Positions 19,031 to 29,697 of a stretch of 64,000 nt of DNA are shown in pieces. The position numbers were made by a program, and so were the translations under genes. The DNA is from Thomasclavelia ramosa DSM 1402 (GTDB taxonomy: Bacteria > Bacillota_I > Bacilli_A > Erysipelotrichales > Coprobacillaceae), in contig NZ_CP036346.1 of the NCBI RefSeq assembly GCF_014131695.1, positions 1,984,001 through 2,048,000 on the forward strand, in the 5' to 3' direction. Under the pieces are notes generated by a model. The model searched no databases. It saw only the letters and a program-made list of their open reading frames with translations, and was not told where the DNA came from. Each line of letters starts with the position of its first letter. Position 1 is the first letter of the stretch.

Positions 19031-19960
19031 CTAGATATTAATTTCTTTAATACTACACTTGATTGCTCTAATAAAGCCCTCATCTTCTTTCGACAAACGA
19101 TATCCTTTTCTCGTAATCAACAGATCTTGATAACTCATTTTATTTTCTTGACACTCCTTAGTAACTAAATTAAAACGTCTTAAAACTTCTTGAGGAATCG
19201 GTGACACCCACATAAAAGTATGAGGTAGATGATTTAATAACTCAAATTGACTAGCCCGTTCATATACCGAAATTTCTTTTTTACTATGACGTGTTTCATC
19301 ATTACGATTGGTTGCTACGATCGGTAATGATGGTAAAGCTGTATCCCCATGTGTAATTTCTATTTGGGTTTCTAGATCAGATAGATAAATAATCTCTTTA
19401 AATGATAACGGATTTTCATTTGAAAATAATAATTGATAATTAAATTGATATAGTTTTTCAAAATTTAGTTCCTTTGTTTCTAATAAATGGAGAAAATAAC
19501 TCTCTTCATCAATAGGAAAGCGAATTATTCCAATATTTGCTTCTCCTTCATAAACATCCTTGATTGTATCAAAAGAATTCGTTTCGCGATAATTAACCTT
19601 AATATTTTTATCATGAAAATTAATCATCGATAAATAATTAGTAAACGCATTAGCGACATAACTAGCCCGCGGTACACATATATCTAAATGAACAGACTTA
19701 TCATCATATCCTTGATACATGGCTTCCATCTCTTCTACCTGCATAATGATACTTTTAGCTCGTTCAATAAATTCAGCACCTTTTTTTGTTGGAATAACTC
19801 CTTTTGAAGTTCGTTCAAAAATAATTATCTGCATATTTTCTTCCAGATCTTTAATTGTTTTACTTAAATGCGGCTGATTCATATATAAATTGCTGGCAGC
19901 TTTACTAATTGAGCCGGCTTTTGCAACTTCAATCACGTATTTTAAATGTAATAGATTCAT
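19031..19960 (-). CDS. LysR family transcriptional regulator
   Basis: A 309-residue regulator with an N-terminal winged helix-turn-helix (residues 1-60: LHLKYVIEVAKAGSISKAA, then NQPHLSKTIKDLEE and FERTSKGVIPTKKG) and a C-terminal ligand-binding domain of the periplasmic-binding fold. AAGGAG lies 8 bases before the ATG. It sits between the alcohol dehydrogenase gene (same strand, downstream) and the hydrogenase operon (divergent), so either could be its target. The effector is not predictable. The divergent arrangement with the hydrogenase operon over about 200 bases is typical of LysR regulation. Confidence 0.92.
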   Translation of the reverse strand: MNLLHLKYVIEVAKAGSISKAASNLYMNQPHLSKTIKDLEENMQIIIFERTSKGVIPTKKGAEFIERAKSIIMQVEEMEAMYQGYDDKSVHLDICVPRASYVANAFTNYLSMINFHDKNIKVNYRETNSFDTIKDVYEGEANIGIIRFPIDEESYFLHLLETKELNFEKLYQFNYQLLFSNENPLSFKEIIYLSDLETQIEITHGDTALPSLPIVATNRNDETRHSKKEISVYERASQFELLNHLPHTFMWVSPIPQEVLRRFNLVTKECQENKMSYQDLLITRKGYRLSKEDEGFIRAIKCSIKEINI

Positions 19961-20094: not shown

Positions 20095-20123
20095 TTTAAA
20101 GCGCTTTCAACTTATGTTATAAT
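20095..20123 (+). promoter_or_regulatory. Hydrogenase operon promoter with overlapping cre-like site
   Basis: TATAAT (20118-20123) has TTTAAA 17 bases upstream (20095-20100). The 16-mer TTTAAAGCGCTTTCAA (20095-20110) matches the CcpA cre consensus with one mismatch and covers the -35 box. This would place the whole hydrogenase operon under carbon catabolite control. I see no convincing Rex site in this interval. Confidence 0.65.
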
Positions 20124-20157: not shown

Positions 20158-20649
20158 ATGAAAAAGTTGAAACAAGAATATTTGGATAAAATTGACGAAA
20201 TCGTTGCTAAGCACAAAGATGAAAAAGGTCCAATGAAACTTATGCTTCACGAGATTCAAAACGAATTAGGCTATATTCCTTTTGAAGCAATGGAAAAAAT
20301 TTCTGAAACAATTGGTGTTCCAGTATCTAAAGTATACGGTGTAGTCACTTTCTATTCTCAATTTACAACTGAACCTAAAGGTAAACATGTTATCGCCGTA
20401 TGTTTAGGAACAGCTTGTTATGTCAATGGTTCCCAAACTATTCTAGACTTACTTTGTGAAATGACGGGATGCGAAGTAAATTCTACTAGTCCTGATGGAC
20501 TATTTTCAATTGATGCAACACGCTGCGTTGGTGCCTGTGGTCTTGCGCCAGTTGTCAGTGTTGACGGAATTGTTTTTGGATGTACTAAACAATTAGAAGA
20601 TTTAAAAATGCTTGTCTTAGATTATTTGAAAGAAGAAGCCCCATGTTAG
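20158..20649 (+). CDS. hydC: NuoE-like [2Fe-2S] subunit of bifurcating [FeFe] hydrogenase (HydC-type)
   Basis: A 163-residue thioredoxin-fold iron-sulfur subunit equivalent to the 24-kDa subunit of complex I. The helical N-terminus (EIQNELGYIPFEAMEKISE, YGVVTFYSQF) precedes four cluster cysteines in CLGTACYVNG and RCVGACGLAPV. It should pass electrons between the NuoF-like flavoprotein and HydA in the cytosolic HydABC complex. AGAGGTG precedes ATG 20158; a longer in-frame extension upstream crosses the promoter and is rejected. It is the first gene of the operon, separated from the other catalytic subunits by six accessory genes. Confidence 0.92.
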   Translation: MKKLKQEYLDKIDEIVAKHKDEKGPMKLMLHEIQNELGYIPFEAMEKISETIGVPVSKVYGVVTFYSQFTTEPKGKHVIAVCLGTACYVNGSQTILDLLCEMTGCEVNSTSPDGLFSIDATRCVGACGLAPVVSVDGIVFGCTKQLEDLKMLVLDYLKEEAPC

Positions 20650-20996
20650 TTAAAGAGATTGTCGATATACTAAAAGCGAAGGAAATATATATTGATGATC
20701 AAGCAATCTATCAAAAAGACTATAAAAAGGGCTTCTCTTCTGATTTAATGTCAGATGCTCTAGCATTATTGAAAAACGAAACCGAAGAAGTATTATTTAT
20801 TACTGGTCTAGCCAACGTACAATCTTTAAGGACAGCAGAAGTTTTAGATATTGATACAATTTTATTTGTTAGAGGAAAGCCACTAGACATGACAATTGTT
20901 GATATGGCTAAAAATCTTCATATTAATCTCTTCCAAACTGATGAAACAATGTTTGAAGCTTGCGGCAAGCTATACGAGGCAGGAATGCGACGATGA
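20643..20996 (+). CDS. DRTGG-like domain protein of the hydrogenase operon
   Basis: A 117-residue soluble protein. After about 50 residues the pattern VLFITGLANVQSLRTAEV and TILFVRGKPLDMTIVDMA resembles the Rossmann-like DRTGG domain, found next to CBS or kinase domains and often as small proteins beside [FeFe] hydrogenase genes in Clostridia. No catalytic motif is evident. It overlaps the NuoE-like gene by 7 bases and the next HATPase gene by 4 (ATGA), so expression is coupled. A ligand-sensing or scaffold role in the accessory module is inferred; the function is unknown. Confidence 0.65.
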   Translation: MLVKEIVDILKAKEIYIDDQAIYQKDYKKGFSSDLMSDALALLKNETEEVLFITGLANVQSLRTAEVLDIDTILFVRGKPLDMTIVDMAKNLHINLFQTDETMFEACGKLYEAGMRR

Positions 20997-21397
20997 TTAA
21001 AACTTATCAAGTAGAAAAAGATAATTATCAAGATGCCGGGAAAGCATCAAGTGATATCAAAAGGACTCTAAAAGCCCTAGGAATTGACCGAAAAATTCTA
21101 AAAGCAGTAGCGATTGCTTGCTATGAAGCTGAGATCAATATTGCAATTCATTCCGATGGAGGAACAGTTACTTTTGAAATTGATGATGACGGTATTGTTC
21201 ATTTAGCTTTTGATGACATTGGTCCTGGGATTGAAGATTTAAACCTTGCTCAAACACCCGGTTATTCAACGGCCTCACCCAAAGCACGGGAATTAGGTTT
21301 TGGTGCCGGAATGGGTCTTTACAACATGAAAAGTGTGGCTTCTACCTTTGAAATTACTTCTTCAAATGAGGGAACCCACATCAAGATGACATTTTAA
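20993..21397 (+). CDS. Small HATPase (anti-sigma factor/RsbW-like ATP-binding protein)
   Basis: A 134-residue GHKL-fold ATP-binding protein. The N box is ACYEAEINIAIHS, the G1 box DDIGPGI and the G2 region GFGAGMGLYNMKSVA, followed by EGTHIKMTF at the end. It lacks a histidine phosphoacceptor domain, which resembles serine kinases and anti-sigma factors of the RsbW/SpoIIAB type. I start at ATG 20993, overlapping the previous stop. The next gene overlaps by one base (TAATG). Homologues occur in hydrogenase clusters of anaerobes, but their partner is not known to me. Confidence 0.85.
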   Translation: MIKTYQVEKDNYQDAGKASSDIKRTLKALGIDRKILKAVAIACYEAEINIAIHSDGGTVTFEIDDDGIVHLAFDDIGPGIEDLNLAQTPGYSTASPKARELGFGAGMGLYNMKSVASTFEITSSNEGTHIKMTF

Positions 21398-22560
21398 TGA
21401 AGCAAGTTATTAGTTATTTAGGCAGTGGTTGTAAAAACTGCATTAAATGTGTTAAATCATGTCCTATGGATGCCATTTCAATTGTCAATGAACAAGTAAT
21501 TATCGATGAAGATAAGTGTATTAATTGCGACATTTGTATTCAGGCATGTGACCAGAAAGTATTAAGAATTAAAAATATCGATCTTGAAAGCACCTTAAAA
21601 AAACATGATTACAATATTGCATTGATTCCTACTGCAATCTTATCTGATTTAAAAACATATGATGAGATAAAAAATATTGCTCATGCAATCAAGGAGTTTG
21701 GATTTGATGAAGTAGTTCAATATAGTGATATTGAAGGACTTTTATATAAACAGGGTTTAAAAGATAGTAAAAATGGTGAAGAAGTAATGTTAACATCATT
21801 TTGCCCGACAATTAATAAACTGATTATTAATGATTACCCTACTTTGATCGATCATTTACTACCATATGATTATCCTGTTGAGATTGCTGCTAAAAAATTA
21901 CGGCAAAAATACGCACAGAAAGATATTGCTATCTATTCTTTATGTGAGTGTGTTGGAAAATTAACACTTGCTAAACAACCTTTTGGTAATGAAGATTCAA
22001 ATATCGATTATGCCTTAAGTGTTTCACAAATGTTTCCACGGATAAATCAATTTAAAAATGATTCACAAGAAGAACTTGAAATCAATGAATATGGAGTAAA
22101 AAGTATTGTTGGTGATCTTTATGGAGATAAAAGACTTTCAGCAATCAGTGTTGAAGGATTATCACAAATTAGAAAAGCCTTGGATTTAATTGAATTTGAT
22201 CAACTAAAACATGTAGATTTAATGGCATTATTTGCTTGTTTCCAAGGATGTATCGGCGGCTATTATTTATGGTCTAATCCTTTTGAAGGCTGCTTTAATA
22301 TTGAAAGCATGATCGATGATTGTAATGGTAATTTAGCTTCGTTAGATAAAAAAGATTATATCAAAGCACATGAAATAACAAGTGGTAATGAAAAGAATTT
22401 CAAAGAACGCTTAGCTTGGTTTAATAAAGTAAATGCTATTTTAGAAACTTTACCTCAATATGATTGTGGCAGCTGTGGATTCGCAAATTGTCGCGGTCTA
22501 GCTTCACGAATTGCTAGTGGTGAGGTTGATGATTCATTATGTCGAGTAAAAAGAAGGTGA
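21397..22560 (+). CDS. Iron-sulfur protein with a degenerate [FeFe] hydrogenase-like domain
   Basis: A 387-residue soluble protein. Two N-terminal [4Fe-4S] ferredoxin motifs bind through Cys12/15/18/22 and Cys41/44/47/51. The middle region resembles the catalytic domain of HydA, but with altered motifs: TSFCPTIN where HydA has TSCSPGW, LCECVGK for MPCVAKK, and ACFQGCIGG for GCPGGCVNGG. A C-terminal four-Cys cluster motif follows (Cys357, 360, 365, 382; DCGSCGFANC). This architecture recalls sensory or accessory hydrogenase homologues and not a catalytic enzyme. It is embedded among HATPase and DRTGG genes, so I infer a redox or H2-sensing role. Whether it holds an H-cluster is unknown. Confidence 0.75.
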   Translation: MKQVISYLGSGCKNCIKCVKSCPMDAISIVNEQVIIDEDKCINCDICIQACDQKVLRIKNIDLESTLKKHDYNIALIPTAILSDLKTYDEIKNIAHAIKEFGFDEVVQYSDIEGLLYKQGLKDSKNGEEVMLTSFCPTINKLIINDYPTLIDHLLPYDYPVEIAAKKLRQKYAQKDIAIYSLCECVGKLTLAKQPFGNEDSNIDYALSVSQMFPRINQFKNDSQEELEINEYGVKSIVGDLYGDKRLSAISVEGLSQIRKALDLIEFDQLKHVDLMALFACFQGCIGGYYLWSNPFEGCFNIESMIDDCNGNLASLDKKDYIKAHEITSGNEKNFKERLAWFNKVNAILETLPQYDCGSCGFANCRGLASRIASGEVDDSLCRVKRR

Positions 22561-22564
22561 TGGT

Positions 22565-22891
22565 ATGAATATCAAAGAAATACTTCAACTAGAAATCAAA
22601 CAAATAAACAAAGCACCTTTGACTAATATTGTTGAAAATGTATATATTGGAGATTTGTTAAGTTTTGTTATGGCAAATGGTAAGGAAGGTGCTTTATGGT
22701 TGACTGTCCAAAAACATTTAAATGTTGTAGCAGTAGCTGAATTAAATGATTTTGCTGGAATTATCTTTGTCCAAAATAGTTTTCCGGATGGAGATACCAT
22801 CGCTAAAGCTGACGAATTAGAAATTCCGTTATTTATTAGTCAGCTTGATGCTTATCATCTTTGTAAACAATTAATTTCTTTAGGTCTTTAA
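22565..22891 (+). CDS. Second small DRTGG-like protein
   Basis: A 108-residue soluble protein. Residues 50-108 (LNVVAVAELNDFAGIIFVQN, then DELEIPLFISQLDAYHLCKQL) have the alternating strand-helix pattern of DRTGG domains, matching the small protein earlier in the operon. AAGGTGATGG precedes the ATG, 5 bases after the iron-sulfur gene. Having two such proteins in one operon suggests that they act together or with the two HATPases. No enzymatic motif is seen. Confidence 0.65.
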   Translation: MNIKEILQLEIKQINKAPLTNIVENVYIGDLLSFVMANGKEGALWLTVQKHLNVVAVAELNDFAGIIFVQNSFPDGDTIAKADELEIPLFISQLDAYHLCKQLISLGL

Positions 22892-22892
22892 A

Positions 22893-23597
22893 ATGTATTA
22901 CGATCTGCATATTCATTCAGCTCTCTCTCCTTGTGGCGATGATACTATGACAATCAATAACATTTTTAATATGTCTTATATTAAAGGTCTGGAATTAATT
23001 GCAATTACTGATCATAATTCTTTAAAACAACAAAACTACTTAGAAGAAATCATCAATCATGAAATCTTAAAAGGCAAGATTGATTATATCCATGGTGTTG
23101 AATTACAGAGTAAAGAAGAGATTCATATTCTCGCCTACTTTTTAAAAGACACCGATTTAAAACCGATTCAAGCATGGATCGACAGTTATTTAATAAAAGT
23201 TCCAAATAATCCCGATTATTATGGCAATCAATATATCTTTAATGTCAATGATGAAATTATCGATCATGAAGACAATTTATTGATCAGTTCCCTTGATCTA
23301 GATATATATCAAATCATTGAGACAATCCATTCTTTTAATGGAATAGCTGTTTTAGCTCATGTATTAGCTAAAAAATTTGGAATCTATGAGATATATCAAG
23401 GAATTCCCGATGATTTAGCTTATGATGGTATTGAAGTTGGTAATTTAAGGGAATTAAAAGAACTAAAAAAAAGATGCCCTTCTGTGCGTTGTGAACATGT
23501 CTTTTATAACAGCGATGCTCATAATTTAGAAGCTATCAATGAACCAGTCAATCAAATTAATAAAGATGATTTTTATCAACTGTGGAGGAAAATATAA
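22893..23597 (+). CDS. PHP domain phosphoesterase
   Basis: A 234-residue metal-dependent phosphoesterase of the PHP superfamily. The metal-binding motifs appear in order: DLHIHSALSPC at the N-terminus, AITDHNS near 40, HGVELQSKEEIHIL near 70, AVLAHV near 150 and YNSDAHN near 205. TrpH-like relatives hydrolyse nucleotide or small-molecule phosphates. The gene starts 2 bases after the preceding DRTGG gene and shares one base with the next HATPase gene. In this setting it could reverse a phosphorylation made by the HATPases, which is inference only. Confidence 0.88.
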   Translation: MYYDLHIHSALSPCGDDTMTINNIFNMSYIKGLELIAITDHNSLKQQNYLEEIINHEILKGKIDYIHGVELQSKEEIHILAYFLKDTDLKPIQAWIDSYLIKVPNNPDYYGNQYIFNVNDEIIDHEDNLLISSLDLDIYQIIETIHSFNGIAVLAHVLAKKFGIYEIYQGIPDDLAYDGIEVGNLRELKELKKRCPSVRCEHVFYNSDAHNLEAINEPVNQINKDDFYQLWRKI

Positions 23598-24130
23598 TGC
23601 AGGAAATCGCAATGAATATTCTCGATATTGCTTATAACTCAATAAAAGCTCAGGCTAATTTGATCAAGATCATTATTCACGATAGCAGTAAATTAAATAT
23701 TATTAATATCCAAATTATTGATAATGGCATTGGGATGGACAAAACAACTGTAAAAAATGTTATTGATCCATTCTATACAACAAGAACCACTAGAAAAGTC
23801 GGTCTTGGAGTCCCAATGTTTAAGGAAAACATTGAAGCTACTGGAGGAACCTTTAAAATCGAATCCGAAGTTGGAAAAGGTACTCATGTAACTGGTGAAT
23901 TTATTAAAAATCATTTGGATACGCCACCAATGGGAAATATTGTTGAAACAATTATTACTTTGATTCAAGCTGATGAAAAAATTAATTATTTATTTAAATA
24001 TACAAGTGATAAATTAGAATTTATTTTAGACACTCAAGAAATTAAAAAAATTCTTGAGGGTGTTCCAATTAATCAACCAGAGATAATTGTCTGGTTAAAA
24101 GAATATATAAAGGAGGGATTGCAACTATGA
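23597..24130 (+). CDS. Second small HATPase (histidine-kinase-like ATP-binding protein)
   Basis: A 177-residue protein whose first 115 residues form a GHKL ATP-binding domain. The N box region is MNILDIAYNSIKAQA, the G1 box IDNGIGMD, a lid PFYTTRTTRKVGLGVPM and the G2 region EVGKGTHVTGEF. The C-terminal 60 residues are charged and unassigned. No His phosphoacceptor or sensor is present. ATG 23597 overlaps the PHP stop as TAATG and has GGAGG upstream; the 3' end overlaps the next gene by 4 bases. Equivalent proteins accompany bifurcating hydrogenase genes in Clostridia. Confidence 0.82.
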   Translation: MQEIAMNILDIAYNSIKAQANLIKIIIHDSSKLNIINIQIIDNGIGMDKTTVKNVIDPFYTTRTTRKVGLGVPMFKENIEATGGTFKIESEVGKGTHVTGEFIKNHLDTPPMGNIVETIITLIQADEKINYLFKYTSDKLEFILDTQEIKKILEGVPINQPEIIVWLKEYIKEGLQL

Positions 24131-24495
24131 AATCCTTAGAAGATTTAAAAAAACTTCGTGATGCTGCTCAAAGCAACATGTCAATGCGAACAGATGAACA
24201 ACAAAAATATCGGGTTGTCGTAGGAATGGCAACTTGCGGGATTGCAGCAGGAGCGCGTCCTGTTTTAAACACTTTAGTAGAAACTGTTGCCCAAGAAAAA
24301 TTACCTGCAACAGTATTACAAACTGGATGTATTGGAATGTGCACTCTAGAACCAATCGTAGAAGTGTTTGATCGCGATGACAATAAAACAACATATGTAT
24401 TAGTAAACCCTGCTAAAGCTAAAGAAATTGCTGAAAAACACTTAAAACATGATGAAATAATCGACGAGTATACTGTCGGACATTATAAGAAATAG
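24127..24495 (+). CDS. Thioredoxin-like [2Fe-2S] ferredoxin of the hydrogenase
   Basis: A 122-residue protein of the thioredoxin-like [2Fe-2S] family. The four cluster cysteines are spread over VGMATCGIAAGA and QTGCIGMCTLEP, the latter matching the N-terminal part of HydB-type subunits. Small proteins of this kind occur next to hydB in many anaerobes, probably as an additional electron carrier or subunit of the bifurcating complex. AAAGGAGGG precedes the ATG, which overlaps the HATPase stop (ATGA). It is followed by hydB after 11 bases. Confidence 0.88.
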   Translation: MKSLEDLKKLRDAAQSNMSMRTDEQQKYRVVVGMATCGIAAGARPVLNTLVETVAQEKLPATVLQTGCIGMCTLEPIVEVFDRDDNKTTYVLVNPAKAKEIAEKHLKHDEIIDEYTVGHYKK

Positions 24496-24506
24496 GAGGT
24501 TGTAAG

Positions 24507-26306
24507 ATGCCAACAAAAAGAACCCAAGTGTTAGTTTGTGCTGGAACTGGTTGTACAATCGGTAATTCAGGTGAGCTAATCACGGAATTCGAAAAAGAAA
24601 TCAAAGCTCTTGGGCTTGAAAAAGAAGTTGAAGTTTTAAGAACTGGTTGTTTAGGATTATGTGGAGTTGGTCCAAATATTTCTATCTATCCAGATAATAT
24701 CATTTATAAAACTGTTCAGGTTTCTGATGTTAAAGAAATCGTTATGGAACACTTCTATAAAGGTCGTCCAGTTCATCGTTTAATGTTAAATGAATCTGAT
24801 GAAGAAACAAAAGAGATTCATGATATAAATGATACTAAATTCTATAATAAACAAAAAAGAATCGCCCTTCATAATTGTGGTGTAATTGACCCAGAAAACA
24901 TTAATGAATATATCGGGAAAGATGGCTACTTTGCCTTAGCTAAAGTAGTTAGCGAAATGACTCCACAAGAAGTCGTAGATGTAATTAAAGCTAGTGGATT
25001 ACGCGGCCGTGGAGGTGGTGGATTCCCTGCTGGAGTTAAATGGCAATTTGCTTTAAATGAACCCGGTAAAGAAAAATATGTTATTTGTAACGCTGATGAA
25101 GGTGATCCTGGAGCATTTATGGATCGTTCAATTCTTGAGGGAAATCCCCACAGTGTTATTGAAGCAATGGCTATTGCCGCTTATGCAATTGGTGCTAACC
25201 ATGGATATATTTATATTCGAGCTGAATATCCTATTGCCGTAGAACGTTTAAATACAGCTTTAGAGCAAGCACGTGAGCTAGGACTAATCGGTAAAAATAT
25301 TTTTGAGAGTGGTTTTGATTTTGATTTAGAACTACGTTTAGGAGCTGGAGCCTTCGTTTGTGGTGAAGAAACAGCTTTGATTCAATCAATTGAAGGTGAA
25401 CGGGGAATGCCTAATCCGAAACCACCATTTCCTGCCCATAAAGGGGTCTGGGGAAAACCAACTATTATTAACAACGTTGAAACATATGCCAATATTGCTC
25501 AAATTATTCAACATGGTGCTGAATGGTTTAGGAGCATTGGTACTGAAACATCACCTGGTACAAAAGTATTTGCCCTTGGAGGAAAAATTGTTAATACTGG
25601 ATTAGTTGAAGTTCCAATGGGAACTACTTTACGTGAAGTAATTTATGAAATTGGTGGTGGCTGCCCAAATCACAAACGCTTTAAAGCAGTTCAAACAGGT
25701 GGTCCATCAGGTGGCTGTTTGACTGAAGAACAACTAGATACACCAATTGGTTTTGATGAATTAGTAAAACTTGGCTCAATGATGGGATCAGGTGGAATGA
25801 TCGTTCTCGACGAAGACAACTGTATGGTCGATGTAGCCCGCTTCTATATGGATTTTATTGTTGATGAATCATGTGGTAAATGCACTCCTTGCCGTGTAGG
25901 AACCAAACGAATGCTAGAATTGCTTGAACAAATTTGTGACGGTAAAGGAACAATGGAAACTTTAGATGAACTTGAATTACTAGCTTCAACAATTCAAGAT
26001 ACTGCTCTATGCGGCTTAGGTCAAACTGCTCCTAACCCTGTACTTTCTACGATCCATCAATTTAGAGACGAATATATTGCACATATCGTTGATAAAAAAT
26101 GTCCTGCTGGGGTATGTAAAGAATTATTACAATATGAAATCGATGAAGATAAATGTCGTAAGTGTGGTCTTTGTGCTAAACAATGTCCAGTTGGAGCAAT
26201 CAGTGGTGAACTTGGAAAAGTTCCATATGTTATCGATCAAGAAAAATGTATTAAATGTGGTCAATGTATTAAAGCATGCCACTTTAATGTAATTGAAAGA
26301 AAGTAG
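24507..26306 (+). CDS. hydB: NuoF-like flavoprotein subunit of bifurcating hydrogenase (HydB)
   Basis: A 599-residue subunit carrying the NAD(H) and flavin site. Domains in order: a thioredoxin-like [2Fe-2S] domain (residues 1-85, CAGTGCTIGN and LRTGCLGLCG); the NuoF core with FMN-binding GRGGGGFPAGVKW, NADEGDPGAFMDR and GAGAFVCGEETALI; the cluster motif ESCGKCTPCRVGTKRM; and two C-terminal [4Fe-4S] motifs (CRKCGLCAKQCPVGAI, CIKCGQCIKACHF). This layout is diagnostic of HydB of electron-bifurcating HydABC, which couples NADH and ferredoxin oxidation to H2 production. AGGAGG precedes the ATG, and hydA follows after 9 bases. Confidence 0.96.
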   Translation: MPTKRTQVLVCAGTGCTIGNSGELITEFEKEIKALGLEKEVEVLRTGCLGLCGVGPNISIYPDNIIYKTVQVSDVKEIVMEHFYKGRPVHRLMLNESDEETKEIHDINDTKFYNKQKRIALHNCGVIDPENINEYIGKDGYFALAKVVSEMTPQEVVDVIKASGLRGRGGGGFPAGVKWQFALNEPGKEKYVICNADEGDPGAFMDRSILEGNPHSVIEAMAIAAYAIGANHGYIYIRAEYPIAVERLNTALEQARELGLIGKNIFESGFDFDLELRLGAGAFVCGEETALIQSIEGERGMPNPKPPFPAHKGVWGKPTIINNVETYANIAQIIQHGAEWFRSIGTETSPGTKVFALGGKIVNTGLVEVPMGTTLREVIYEIGGGCPNHKRFKAVQTGGPSGGCLTEEQLDTPIGFDELVKLGSMMGSGGMIVLDEDNCMVDVARFYMDFIVDESCGKCTPCRVGTKRMLELLEQICDGKGTMETLDELELLASTIQDTALCGLGQTAPNPVLSTIHQFRDEYIAHIVDKKCPAGVCKELLQYEIDEDKCRKCGLCAKQCPVGAISGELGKVPYVIDQEKCIKCGQCIKACHFNVIERK

Positions 26307-26315
26307 GTGTAAGGA

Positions 26316-28064
26316 ATGTCGAAAATAAAAATGACTATCAACAACCGTGAGGTAGAGGCATATGAAGGCCAAACAGTCTTGGAAGCAGCCAAAAATAACG
26401 GAATCCATATCCCTACTTTATGTTATTTAAAAGATGTTACAGGAACAGGTGCTTGCCGTGTTTGCCAAGTTGAAATCGAAGGTGCAAAAACATTATGCGC
26501 TGCCTGTGTTTATCCTGTTAGAGAAGGACTAGTAGTTAAAACTAATTCTCAACGAGCTTTAGATGCAAGACGTCGAGTCGTAGAATTAATTGTTTCTAAC
26601 CACTCTAAAGATTGTCTATCTTGTATCCGTAATACAAACTGCGAATTACAACGACTTTGTCAAGAATTAGGAGTCCGCGAAGATGCTTTTGCTGGCGAAA
26701 AAACAGCTCCTACCTTTGATGAAGTTTCGCCTGGAATCGTTCGTAATACTTCAAAGTGTGTCCTTTGCGGCCGCTGCGTTGAAACATGTGCTAAAACCCA
26801 AGGTTTAGGAATCCTAGGCTTTATGAATCGTGGTTTCAAAACTAAAGTTGGTCCAGTTTATGATAAGAGTATGAATGATGTCAACTGTATGCAATGTGGA
26901 CAATGTATCAATGTTTGTCCAGTTGGAGCGTTACAAGAAAAAGAAGAAGTCCATAATGTTATTGCGGCTTTAAATGACGACAGTAAACATGTTGTAGTGC
27001 AAACTGCACCAGCAGTTAGAGCCAGTTTAGGCGAAGAATTTGGAATGCCAATAGGAACTAGAGTAACTGGTAAAATGGTCCATGCCTTAAAATTAATGGG
27101 CTTTGATAGAGTATATGACACAAATTTTGGTGCAGATTTGACCATAATGGAAGAAGGATACGAGTTTATCCATCGTATCAGCAATGATGGAGTTTTACCA
27201 ATGATTACATCTTGTAGTCCTGGATGGGTAAACTATATTGAACACGAATATCCTGAATTATTAGATCATTTATCAAGTTGTAAATCACCACATATGATGC
27301 TAGGTTCAATGATTAAATCTTATTATGCAAAAGAAAATAACCTTGATCCAAAAGATATCTATGTTGTTTCTATTATGCCTTGTGTTGCTAAAAAAGGTGA
27401 AAAAGAACGTGAAGAAAACTTAACTGATGGTTTAAAAGATGTTGATGCGGTATTAACAACTAGAGAGTTAGGTAAATTAATTAAAATGTTTGGGATTAAT
27501 TTCCGTGATTTAAAAGACGAAGATTTTGATCAAGACATGTTCGGTGAATACACAGGTGCCGGAGTTATCTTTGGTGCCAGTGGTGGTGTAATGGAAGCTG
27601 CCTTAAGAACTGTAACTGATGTTTTAACAAAAGAAGACTTAACTAATTTAGACTATCATGCAGTTCGTGGTGAAGAAGGAGTCAAAGAAGCTAGTTTAAA
27701 AATTGGTGATATGACAGTAAATGTTGCAGTTGCCCATAGTATGGTTCTAGCTAAACCTTTACTCGAAGAAATTAAAAACGGTACATCTAAATATCATTTC
27801 ATTGAAATCATGGGATGTCCTGGCGGATGTGTTAACGGTGGTGGTCAATCATATGTTAATGCTTTAACTCGTAATAGCGGTTTTGACTGGAAACAAGCTC
27901 GTGCTAAAGCGTTGTATGATGAAGACTTAGCATTACCTGTTAGAAAATCCCATAAGAATTCACAAATTCAAAAATTATATGCTGATTTCTTAGGTGAACC
28001 AAACAGCGAAAAAGCACATCATTTATTACACACACATTATACAAGAAAAGAACGGTTTAAATAA
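26316..28064 (+). CDS. hydA: [FeFe] hydrogenase catalytic subunit (HydA)
   Basis: A 582-residue cytosolic hydrogenase producing H2 from protons. The N-terminal [2Fe-2S] domain uses Cys36/47/50/61. A His-ligated cluster follows (HSKDCLSCIRNTNC, residues 96-109), then two [4Fe-4S] motifs (Cys148-158, Cys191-201). The H-cluster motifs TSCSPGW (298-304), IMPCVAKKGE (about 353) and GCPGGCVNGGG (about 497) are intact. The C-terminal small-subunit-like extension is present. Full length and motif set indicate an active enzyme. The maturases hydE, hydF and hydG are not in this window. It ends the catalytic part of the operon. Confidence 0.97.
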   Translation: MSKIKMTINNREVEAYEGQTVLEAAKNNGIHIPTLCYLKDVTGTGACRVCQVEIEGAKTLCAACVYPVREGLVVKTNSQRALDARRRVVELIVSNHSKDCLSCIRNTNCELQRLCQELGVREDAFAGEKTAPTFDEVSPGIVRNTSKCVLCGRCVETCAKTQGLGILGFMNRGFKTKVGPVYDKSMNDVNCMQCGQCINVCPVGALQEKEEVHNVIAALNDDSKHVVVQTAPAVRASLGEEFGMPIGTRVTGKMVHALKLMGFDRVYDTNFGADLTIMEEGYEFIHRISNDGVLPMITSCSPGWVNYIEHEYPELLDHLSSCKSPHMMLGSMIKSYYAKENNLDPKDIYVVSIMPCVAKKGEKEREENLTDGLKDVDAVLTTRELGKLIKMFGINFRDLKDEDFDQDMFGEYTGAGVIFGASGGVMEAALRTVTDVLTKEDLTNLDYHAVRGEEGVKEASLKIGDMTVNVAVAHSMVLAKPLLEEIKNGTSKYHFIEIMGCPGGCVNGGGQSYVNALTRNSGFDWKQARAKALYDEDLALPVRKSHKNSQIQKLYADFLGEPNSEKAHHLLHTHYTRKERFK

Positions 28065-28084: not shown

Positions 28085-28978
28085 ATGAAGAAAATAATTA
28101 AATATTTATTATGTTTAATGATGATATTCACGATGATTGGGTGTTCAAATACAGAAACTAAAGATAAATCCAATACAGTTAAAATACTATGTCCTGCGGG
28201 AGCTCCGTCACTTGCCTTTGTCAGTGAGTATGAAAATATCAGTAAAAAAGGAAAAATAGATTTTGTTGATGGTAGCGATCAGCTTGTTGCTGAATTATCA
28301 AAAAATAGCAGTGATTACGATATTATTGTTGCCCCAATTAATTTAGGTGCTAAATTGATTGCTAGCGAACAAACCGATTATCGTATTCAAGGGGTTATTA
28401 CCTGGGGTAATTTATACTATATTGGAACTAGTAACGAAGCATTAAATCAGACTGGCGAACTGGGTTTATTCGGTGAAGGTGCAGTTCCTCAAAAAATCGT
28501 TGATACTGTAAAAATTAATACTTCATTGACTCCTAAGTACTATCAATCAGCAACATTAGTACAACAACAATTATTATCGGGCAACATTCAAGTTGGAATG
28601 TTAGCTGAACCACTTGCAAGTGCAACGATTGCTAAAGCTAAACAAGCAGGAATTGAACTTTCAATTATTGCTGATTTACAAAAAGAATACGGTAAAGATG
28701 GTTATCCTCAAGCCGCTATCTTTGTTAAAGAAAATAACAACTATGATGAACTATTTGAAGCAATCGATCAGTTCACTAATAATGATTACAATGGATTAAA
28801 AGACTATCTAGAAAAAATTGGTATCGAGACATTGAGTTTGCCAAGTGTTGAAATTACAGTTAAATCTATCGATCGTCAAAATGTCCATTATAAAAAAGCT
28901 AGTGAATGTTCTGAGCAAATTAAAGACTTCTTAAAATTATTTAACATTGATTATAATAAAAATATGTTAAGTTCATGA
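28085..28978 (+). CDS. ABC transporter substrate-binding lipoprotein (SsuA/THI5-like)
   Basis: A 297-residue exported lipoprotein with a hydrophobic leader and the lipobox TMIGC. The mature protein has the periplasmic-binding fold of the NMT1/SsuA type: VKILCPAGAPSLAFV at the N-terminus, a YDIIVAPINLGAKLI segment and QVGMLAEPLASATIA. Relatives bind sulfonates, taurine, riboflavin or pyrimidine precursors; the ligand here is unknown. AGGGGGGA lies before the ATG, 20 bases after hydA with no terminator between, so it is probably transcribed with the hydrogenase. It overlaps the permease gene by 4 bases. Confidence 0.88.
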   Translation: MKKIIKYLLCLMMIFTMIGCSNTETKDKSNTVKILCPAGAPSLAFVSEYENISKKGKIDFVDGSDQLVAELSKNSSDYDIIVAPINLGAKLIASEQTDYRIQGVITWGNLYYIGTSNEALNQTGELGLFGEGAVPQKIVDTVKINTSLTPKYYQSATLVQQQLLSGNIQVGMLAEPLASATIAKAKQAGIELSIIADLQKEYGKDGYPQAAIFVKENNNYDELFEAIDQFTNNDYNGLKDYLEKIGIETLSLPSVEITVKSIDRQNVHYKKASECSEQIKDFLKLFNIDYNKNMLSS

Positions 28979-29697
28979 GACGTAAAATAATTACTTTAAT
29001 ATTAATTATTGGTTTATGGCAAGGTTTTGCTTTATCAATTGATAAAGCAGTAATCTTGCCTTTACCACTTGTAGTCTTTAACCAAATGTTCAACCTAGCA
29101 ACTAGTCAATCCTTCTATATCGCAATTGGAGCAACTTTATCACGTGTTGCTTTAAGTTTCTTTTTAGCTTTAATAGTTGGGACCATCTTAGGCGTTTTTA
29201 GTGGCTTGTTTAAAAGTGTTAATGAATACTTAGCTCCAATTTTCTCATTCTTACAAACTATCCCTCAAATTGCCTATATTTTAATTTTATTGGTATGGTT
29301 TAAAAGTCTGACTGCATTGATCATCATTGTTTTATTGATGATTTTGCCAGTATTTTATAATAATGCTGTTAACGGTATTAAAAACATAAGTAACGATTTA
29401 AATGATGTTACGATTCTCTATCACCATCCATTTAAATTTAATCTAATTCATGTTTATCTCCCTTTAATCAAAGGGTATATCGTCTCAGCCGTTGAAACAG
29501 CTCTACCACAAAGTTTAAAGGTCGGTGTGATGGCTGAAATTTTTGTTTCCTCAAATCAAGGAATTGGTAAACAGTTGTATTTTGCTAGAGCACAAATTGA
29601 TATGGTCAGTATTTTTGCCTGGACCATCTGGATGGTTATTATTATTATGTTAATTACATATTTTACTAATAAAATAATTAATAAAGATAAAAAGTAA
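28975..29697 (+). CDS. ABC transporter permease (SsuC-like)
   Basis: A 240-residue permease with about six membrane helices. The cytoplasmic coupling region is visible as HVYLPLIKGYIVSAVETALPQSLKVGV, in the place of the EAA loop. It overlaps the substrate-binding lipoprotein gene (ATGA), and together they form an importer of the nitrate/sulfonate/taurine class. The expected ATPase gene is absent: the next gene is convergent. Either a distant ATPase is shared or the operon has lost its third gene. It ends in a perfect 18-bp inverted repeat. Confidence 0.88.
   Translation: MRRKIITLILIIGLWQGFALSIDKAVILPLPLVVFNQMFNLATSQSFYIAIGATLSRVALSFFLALIVGTILGVFSGLFKSVNEYLAPIFSFLQTIPQIAYILILLVWFKSLTALIIIVLLMILPVFYNNAVNGIKNISNDLNDVTILYHHPFKFNLIHVYLPLIKGYIVSAVETALPQSLKVGVMAEIFVSSNQGIGKQLYFARAQIDMVSIFAWTIWMVIIIMLITYFTNKIINKDKK

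Follow-up and report, generated by a model that had tools for sequence, protein, structure and literature searches.

A conserved six-gene cassette beside NADH/ferredoxin enzymes of anaerobes and its possible role in redox signalling

The window analyzed here, a stretch of 64,000 nucleotides from the genome of Thomasclavelia ramosa DSM 1402, contains an operon for a bifurcating [FeFe] hydrogenase in which a cassette of six genes, designated D1, K1, HydX, D2, PHP and K2, is located between hydC and hydDBA. The cassette codes for two single-domain DRTGG proteins (D1 and D2), two GHKL ATPases (K1 and K2), a hydrogenase-like iron-sulfur protein (HydX) and a PHP-family phosphoesterase. Genome comparisons placed the same cassette in well over a hundred anaerobes, next to enzymes that transfer electrons between NADH and ferredoxin whether or not a hydrogenase is present, and this setting points to redox or energy control rather than to a hydrogen sensor. 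On balance, we favor a function in redox/energy signalling, as a cytoplasmic switch resembling a sensor kinase that would respond to redox or adenylate state and serve enzymes linking NAD(H) with ferredoxin.

The ten genes hydC, D1, K1, HydX, D2, PHP, K2, hydD, hydB and hydA lie in this order on the forward strand at positions 20158-28064, with gaps of 11 bp or less. An earlier reading of this stretch (the original prediction) had counted overlaps of 1 to 7 bases at five of the seven junctions in the cassette region, which agreed with the coordinates of the open reading frames (ORFs). The gene set, coordinates and domain assignments of that reading were also upheld by the ORFs, Pfam searches and a structural model of D1.

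The conservation of the cassette was investigated in two genome surveys. Among 245 genomes of the same phylum, HydX homologues (E<1e-40) were found in 12 including the window, the closest named relatives being those of T. saccharogumia and T. cocleata. The arrangement D1-K1-HydX-D2-PHP-K2 stood beside HydC/D/B/A in all 12 (11 of the 11 relatives fetched, and the window), a conservation of order far beyond chance. In the second survey, a HydX profile was searched against 299 genomes from the phylum of Acidaminobacter (the clostridial set). Full-length matches of at least 400 bits were detected in 117 genomes, followed by fragments and then by proteins like HydS, a relative of HydX, at about 220 bits or less. 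Of approximately 122 clostridial HydX loci, 100 were fetched, the first ten chosen for a missing or weak hydrogenase and the remainder by rank. The core order D1-K1-HydX-D2-PHP was present in about 80 of these 100 loci and in about 71 of 80 others. D1 and HydX occurred together in 107 of the 299 genomes, HydX alone in 13, D1 alone in nine and neither in 170 (Fisher P=1.5e-54, a value that is only indicative because the genomes share descent). Judged from the sequences, the six genes form a real conserved unit.

The neighboring enzymes were then compared in the 80 HydX loci having at least 7 kb of sequence on either side. HydC was found in 73, HydB in 71 and HydD in 70 of them, while HydA was found in only 52. 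The expected co-occurrence with hydABC was thus borne out for HydB and HydC but less so for HydA. In eleven loci, HydA was replaced by a NuoG-like N-terminal part (228-253 bits). In the three loci checked by Pfam (L165, L173 and L231), this part belonged with an oxidoreductase of the molybdopterin type, which is most likely a formate dehydrogenase. The cassette was also located immediately upstream of rnfC-D-G-E-A-B at L238 and L255, and cassettes lacking HydX preceded rnf operons at L270 and L272. Rex-type regulators were recurrent neighbors, as was an RseC-family gene (L166). Six genomes with HydX (G281, G357, G407, G426, G476 and G548) yielded no further match to [FeFe] hydrogenases at 1e-20, and neither HydF nor HydG was detected above the cut-off in these six. 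A further cassette-bearing genome, G305 (L173), had a hydrogenase-domain match (E 7e-68) with no HydF or HydG above the cut-off. As far as gene content tells, the partner enzymes have an NADH/ferredoxin step in common, and HydB is likely to be the hub of the enzymes targeted by the cassette.

In Alkaliphilus transvaalensis, HydX directly preceded an rnfD-G-E-A-like run without rnfC (L101, 8965-13506). The sole RnfC match of this organism belonged to another rnf operon, with a HydX-less cassette in front (L272, 6381-14319). This second, complete rnf operon ruled out HydX as a replacement of the only RnfC.

HydX (21397-22560, overlapping K1 by 1 bp) is a protein of 387 residues composed of a ferredoxin-like part for two [4Fe-4S] clusters, a short [FeFe]-hydrogenase H-domain (PF02906, 71.5 bits) and a [4Fe-4S] domain of PF04060 (40.4 bits). 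The Fe_hyd_lg_C, Fer4 pair and FeS domains all passed the Pfam cut-offs, and the Pfam search found no PAS domain in the window protein. In an alignment of 30 diverse HydX sequences, the eight ferredoxin cysteines, the four [4Fe-4S]H ligands (C136, C185, C281 and C285) and the four cysteines of the PF04060 domain were invariant. The equivalents of C299, M353 and M497, which are the proton-relay cysteine and both methionines near [2Fe], were changed, as they are in HydS. The lysine equivalent to K358 was retained in the window but was Gln or Asn in several lineages. The altered H-cluster motifs noticed earlier were therefore real, with the [4Fe-4S] cysteines kept and the [2Fe]-pocket residues lost. 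This loss and the missing HydF and HydG in the hydrogenase-less HydX genomes suggest that HydX is a plain iron-sulfur redox protein. The argument that HydX must be without [2Fe] because the maturases are absent is weakened by ten genomes, 98-100% complete, that had a canonical HydA and a hyd operon yet no HydE, HydF or HydG above the cut-off (G163, G243, G107, G164, G095, G150, G082, G145, G158 and G221, corresponding to loci L035-L044). Either maturation differs in these genomes or their HydA is not an ordinary hydrogenase. All three maturases were present in both Thomasclavelia genomes.

K1 (20993-21397 with an ATG start, overlapping D1 by 4 bp; PF13581 HATPase_c_2, 37.4 bits) is a GHKL ATPase of the SpoIIAB/RsbW type, and its best match in a profile search of the PDB was SpoIIAB (4e-11). 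The N, G1 and G2 boxes were intact, with E45, N49, D75, G77, G79 and the motif GFGAGMGL invariant in the alignment, and K1 is a probable Ser/Thr kinase by these features. K2 (23597-24130, overlapping PHP by 1 bp; PF02518 HATPase_c, 55.5 bits) is of the histidine kinase type. Only HATPase_c was found in it, without a HisKA/DHp phosphoacceptor domain, as had been predicted, and it carries a conserved C-terminal extension. The AlphaFold2 model of K2 (predicted local distance difference test score, pLDDT, 92) best matched the MutL N-domain and histidine kinase catalytic domains in the PDB. PHP (22893-23597, 1 bp after D2; PF02811, 28.5 bits) kept all of its metal ligands (H6, H8, D40, H41, E70, H78, H156, D208 and H210) in 30 sequences, and a PDB sequence search with PHP as the sole query gave no useful match. 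K1, K2 and PHP of the window all passed their Pfam cut-offs.

The DRTGG copies of the window, D1 (20643-20996, overlapping hydC by 7 bp) and D2 (22565-22891, 4 bp after HydX), missed the Pfam cut-off, as D2 gave E=0.061 and D1 no match. At the family level, their DRTGG-like labels held, since PF07085 was matched by 28 of 33 D1 and 30 of 36 D2 relatives at E<=0.01. The AlphaFold2 model of D1 (pLDDT 95) agreed with the DRTGG structure 2ioj at a template modelling (TM) score of 0.80 and with 3l2b/3l31 at 0.68-0.71, so that D1 has the DRTGG fold according to the model.

Natural fusions and split cassettes within one genome also indicated that the parts of the cassette belong together. In-frame fusions of D1-K1 were found at eight loci, PHP-K2 at six, HydX-D2 at three (L102, L196 and L200) and K2-HydD at one (L195). 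In three genomes the cassette was split, with K1-HydX at L191, L199 and L206 and D1-D2-PHP-K2 at L278, L273 and L274, respectively. Genes for OmpR-type response regulators and a large sensor histidine kinase surrounded the three K1-HydX pairs. Next to D1-D2-PHP-K2, a Rex-type gene was recognized in L278 (by Pfam) and L273 (by sequence reading). In the HydX-less cassettes L267, L269, L270 and L271, K1 carried N-terminal tandem CBS domains. As K1-HydX stands as a pair in the split loci and CBS-K1 appears where HydX is missing, the input of K1 would, on the simplest interpretation, be HydX or CBS. CBS sequence also occurred at two HydX-bearing loci (L238 and L275).

Several variant loci were observed besides these. 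Second hyd operons at L224, L241 and L252 consisted of HydX, D2, HydD, HydB and HydA without K1, D1, PHP and K2; one scan also called HydC in them, less clearly in L252. At L206 (7034-8947), Fer4, Fe_hyd_lg_C and FeS domains were fused to a methyl-accepting chemotaxis protein (MCP) signalling domain, with a CheW gene and K1-HydX nearby, and by its domains this protein is a hydrogenase-like chemotaxis receptor. At L117 (2205-5354), HydS and a SpoIIE-type phosphatase adjoined the cassette in divergent orientation, a possible link between the HydS system and the cassette.

The signalling-type role put forward in the original prediction is favored by the K1 ATP site, the PHP ligands, the HydX motifs, the fusions, the two-component neighbors, the CBS-K1 proteins and the related hydrogenase-like protein with an MCP domain at L206. 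For the kinase activity, phosphorylation and its substrates, the direction of control and the ligand sensed, we infer the following scheme. HydX would read the redox state via its [4Fe-4S] clusters, most likely from reduced ferredoxin or the electron flow of the enzyme itself, and would control K1, the SpoIIAB-like ATPase/kinase, with CBS as an alternative input. K1, as a kinase or an ATP-dependent partner, would act on D1 and, via HydX, on D2. The CBS-DRTGG region of pyrophosphatase binds adenine nucleotides, and D1 and D2 may additionally do so like other DRTGG proteins. PHP together with K2 would reverse the phosphorylation, with K2 also linking the cassette and the HydC/HydD/HydB module. 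As a result, the bifurcating enzyme (the hydrogenase here, formate dehydrogenase or Rnf elsewhere) would be tuned in its activity or in the routing of its electrons. Control of the NADH/ferredoxin enzymes would probably be post-translational. We tentatively propose, with slightly less confidence than an even chance, that this is a widespread and undescribed signalling system of anaerobes. Its SpoIIAB-like kinase would be governed by a [4Fe-4S] protein of hydrogenase origin or by CBS domains and, with DRTGG partners and a PHP phosphatase, would set NADH/ferredoxin electron flow. How fermenters and acetogens choose among H2, formate and NADH is an open question, of which transcriptional control by Rex is the best-known part. 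If the proposal is true, there would be conserved post-translational control at bifurcating enzymes, which would matter for the engineering of H2, ethanol and acetate production.

Some observations weigh against the signalling switch. The operon at 20158-28064 contained no STAS partner, PP2C phosphatase, sigma factor or response regulator, and no phosphoacceptor was identified in the cassette proteins. A conserved serine in the D-L-[LM]-S motif of D1 and D2 aligned with a serine of 2ioj in a different context; it is not claimed as a phosphoacceptor, given its counterpart in 2ioj, and may be a feature of the fold or of ligand binding. K2 need not be a kinase, as it lacks the phosphoacceptor domain and structurally resembles MutL. 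The placement of K1-HydX among two-component genes was confined to one lineage. The operons that keep only HydX and D2 with Hyd subunits (L224, L241 and L252) are compatible with a signal chain but equally with a bound subunit.

HydX and D2 might accordingly be electron-transfer or regulatory subunits bound to the bifurcating enzyme, with K1, K2 and PHP modulating their docking. The HydX-D2 fusions, the kinase-free second operons and the Alkaliphilus HydX next to the rnf run lacking rnfC are in line with this explanation. It seems quite improbable all the same, as the A. woodii enzyme has been reported as HydA-D with no subunits of the HydX or D2 type and K1-HydX lies away from any such enzyme at L191, L199 and L206. 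Another explanation is an assembly or repair factor, in which the GHKL ATPases, DRTGG proteins and HydX would serve as an ATP-dependent chaperone or quality-control system inserting or repairing the iron-sulfur or flavin cofactors of HydBC(D). This would suit the tight linkage to HydB, HydC and HydD whatever the catalytic partner, the K2-HydD fusion and the match of K2 to MutL, an ATP-driven clamp; assembly was also suggested, besides signalling, for the ATPase HydE by the authors of the A. woodii study (PMC3315566). We regard this role as unlikely, since most sampled genomes lack the cassette (116 of 299 have D1, against 237 of 299 with PF02906), rnf operons also adjoin it, two-component genes flank K1-HydX in one lineage and the CBS-K1 fusions imply a regulated input.

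The original prediction had envisaged a phosphorylation switch that responds to H2 or redox state and targets the hydrogenase. In its H2 version, the altered H-cluster of HydX would sense H2 and the phospho-switch would control the hydrogenase itself. In favor of it are the kinship of HydX with HydS, a member of a group of proposed H2 sensors, and the presence of HydA nearby in 52 of the 80 complete loci. This version is nonetheless highly doubtful, because HydX has lost its [2Fe]-pocket residues, including the K358 equivalent in several lineages, and has no PAS domain. Moreover, HydBC-type formate dehydrogenases and Rnf are found next to the cassette, which is also present in the six genomes that had no further [FeFe] hydrogenase match and no HydF or HydG above the cut-off. 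H2-specific sensing as the general function was rejected on the grounds of these neighbors and genomes, and the supposed specificity of action for the hydrogenase was not supported, given the same neighbors and genomes.

The remaining genes of the operon code for the enzyme itself. HydC (20158-20649; PF01257, 144.8 bits) is the NuoE-type [2Fe-2S] thioredoxin-like subunit of the NADH/ferredoxin module, HydD (24127-24495, overlapping K2 by 4 bp; PF01257, 21.9 bits, below the cut-off) is a thioredoxin-like small subunit, and HydB (24507-26306; PF01512, PF10589) is the NuoF-type FMN/NADH subunit. HydA (26316-28064) is a group A6 [FeFe] hydrogenase, which scored above the threshold of NF040763, the model for the NADH-dependent enzymes of that group (886.5 vs 765 bits), and has complete canonical H-cluster motifs (TSCSPGW, MPCVAKKGE and GCPGGCVNGGGQ). 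The best promoter-like site upstream of hydC, a consensus match only, is at 20095-20123 on the forward strand and is overlapped by a cre-like site at 20096-20109 (TTAAAGCGCTTTCA) with one mismatch to the CcpA cre. The numbers of promoter-like and cre-like consensus sites in the window were not above chance, and terminator-like sites within the operon were no more than expected by chance. By sequence reading only, a divergent LysR-type regulator (19031-19960) lies upstream of the operon and an SsuA/SsuC-like ABC transporter pair (28085-29697) downstream.

The open-access literature searched yielded neither a paper with a function for the D1-K1-HydX-D2-PHP set nor a functional one on DRTGG together with hydrogenase, subscription papers being mostly outside the search. 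The earlier statement that no function had been assigned therefore held as to the role, but parts of the set had already been listed. In Halanaerobium hydrogeniformans, the annotation of the operon Halsa_1862-1871 was printed without a proposed role; it shares hydrogenase, NADH dehydrogenase, ferredoxin-like, histidine kinase, NuoE, PHP, Fe-S hydrogenase and anti-sigma/Ser-Thr kinase entries with the operon here, whereas DRTGG proteins are not named (PMC4237134). HydE of Acetobacterium woodii (Awo_c27000) is a hyd-operon ATPase reportedly not part of the active enzyme, for which assembly or signalling was suggested (PMC3315566). Like K2, it is a small ATPase of the histidine kinase ATP-binding type at the same position, matched by description and position only, but the five-gene operon as described is without D1, K1, HydX, D2 and PHP.

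K1 shares the fold and the N, G1 and G2 boxes with the anti-sigma kinases SpoIIAB and RsbW, whose partner switching involves a STAS anti-anti-sigma factor, a PP2C phosphatase and a sigma factor, none of which is in the cassette. Membership in classic two-component or partner-switching systems was rejected, as their defining parts are missing. The DRTGG fold of D1 and D2 is that of the CBS-DRTGG region of the C. perfringens pyrophosphatase (3l2b, 3l31) and of the HprK N-domain, although D1 and D2 are free-standing; CBS domains also occur in some cassettes, fused to K1. The nearest functional relatives of the cassette are the HydS/hfsB systems (Ruminococcus albus, T. maritima; hfsABCD of Thermoanaerobacterium). 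HydS has the same Fer4, short H-domain and PF04060 FeS composition as HydX, similar changes at the C299/M353/M497 equivalents, signalling genes next door and a link to hydrogenase. It differs in its PAS domain, its length of about 560 residues and its neighbors, a SpoIIE-type phosphatase and a second hydrogenase, while HydX is set apart by its profile scores (at least 400 bits, against some 220 bits or lower) and by the accompanying DRTGG, K1 and PHP genes. Deletion of HydS/hfsB systems altered fermentation, and loss of the PAS hydrogenase HfsB strongly shifted the ethanol yield (PMC5707799).

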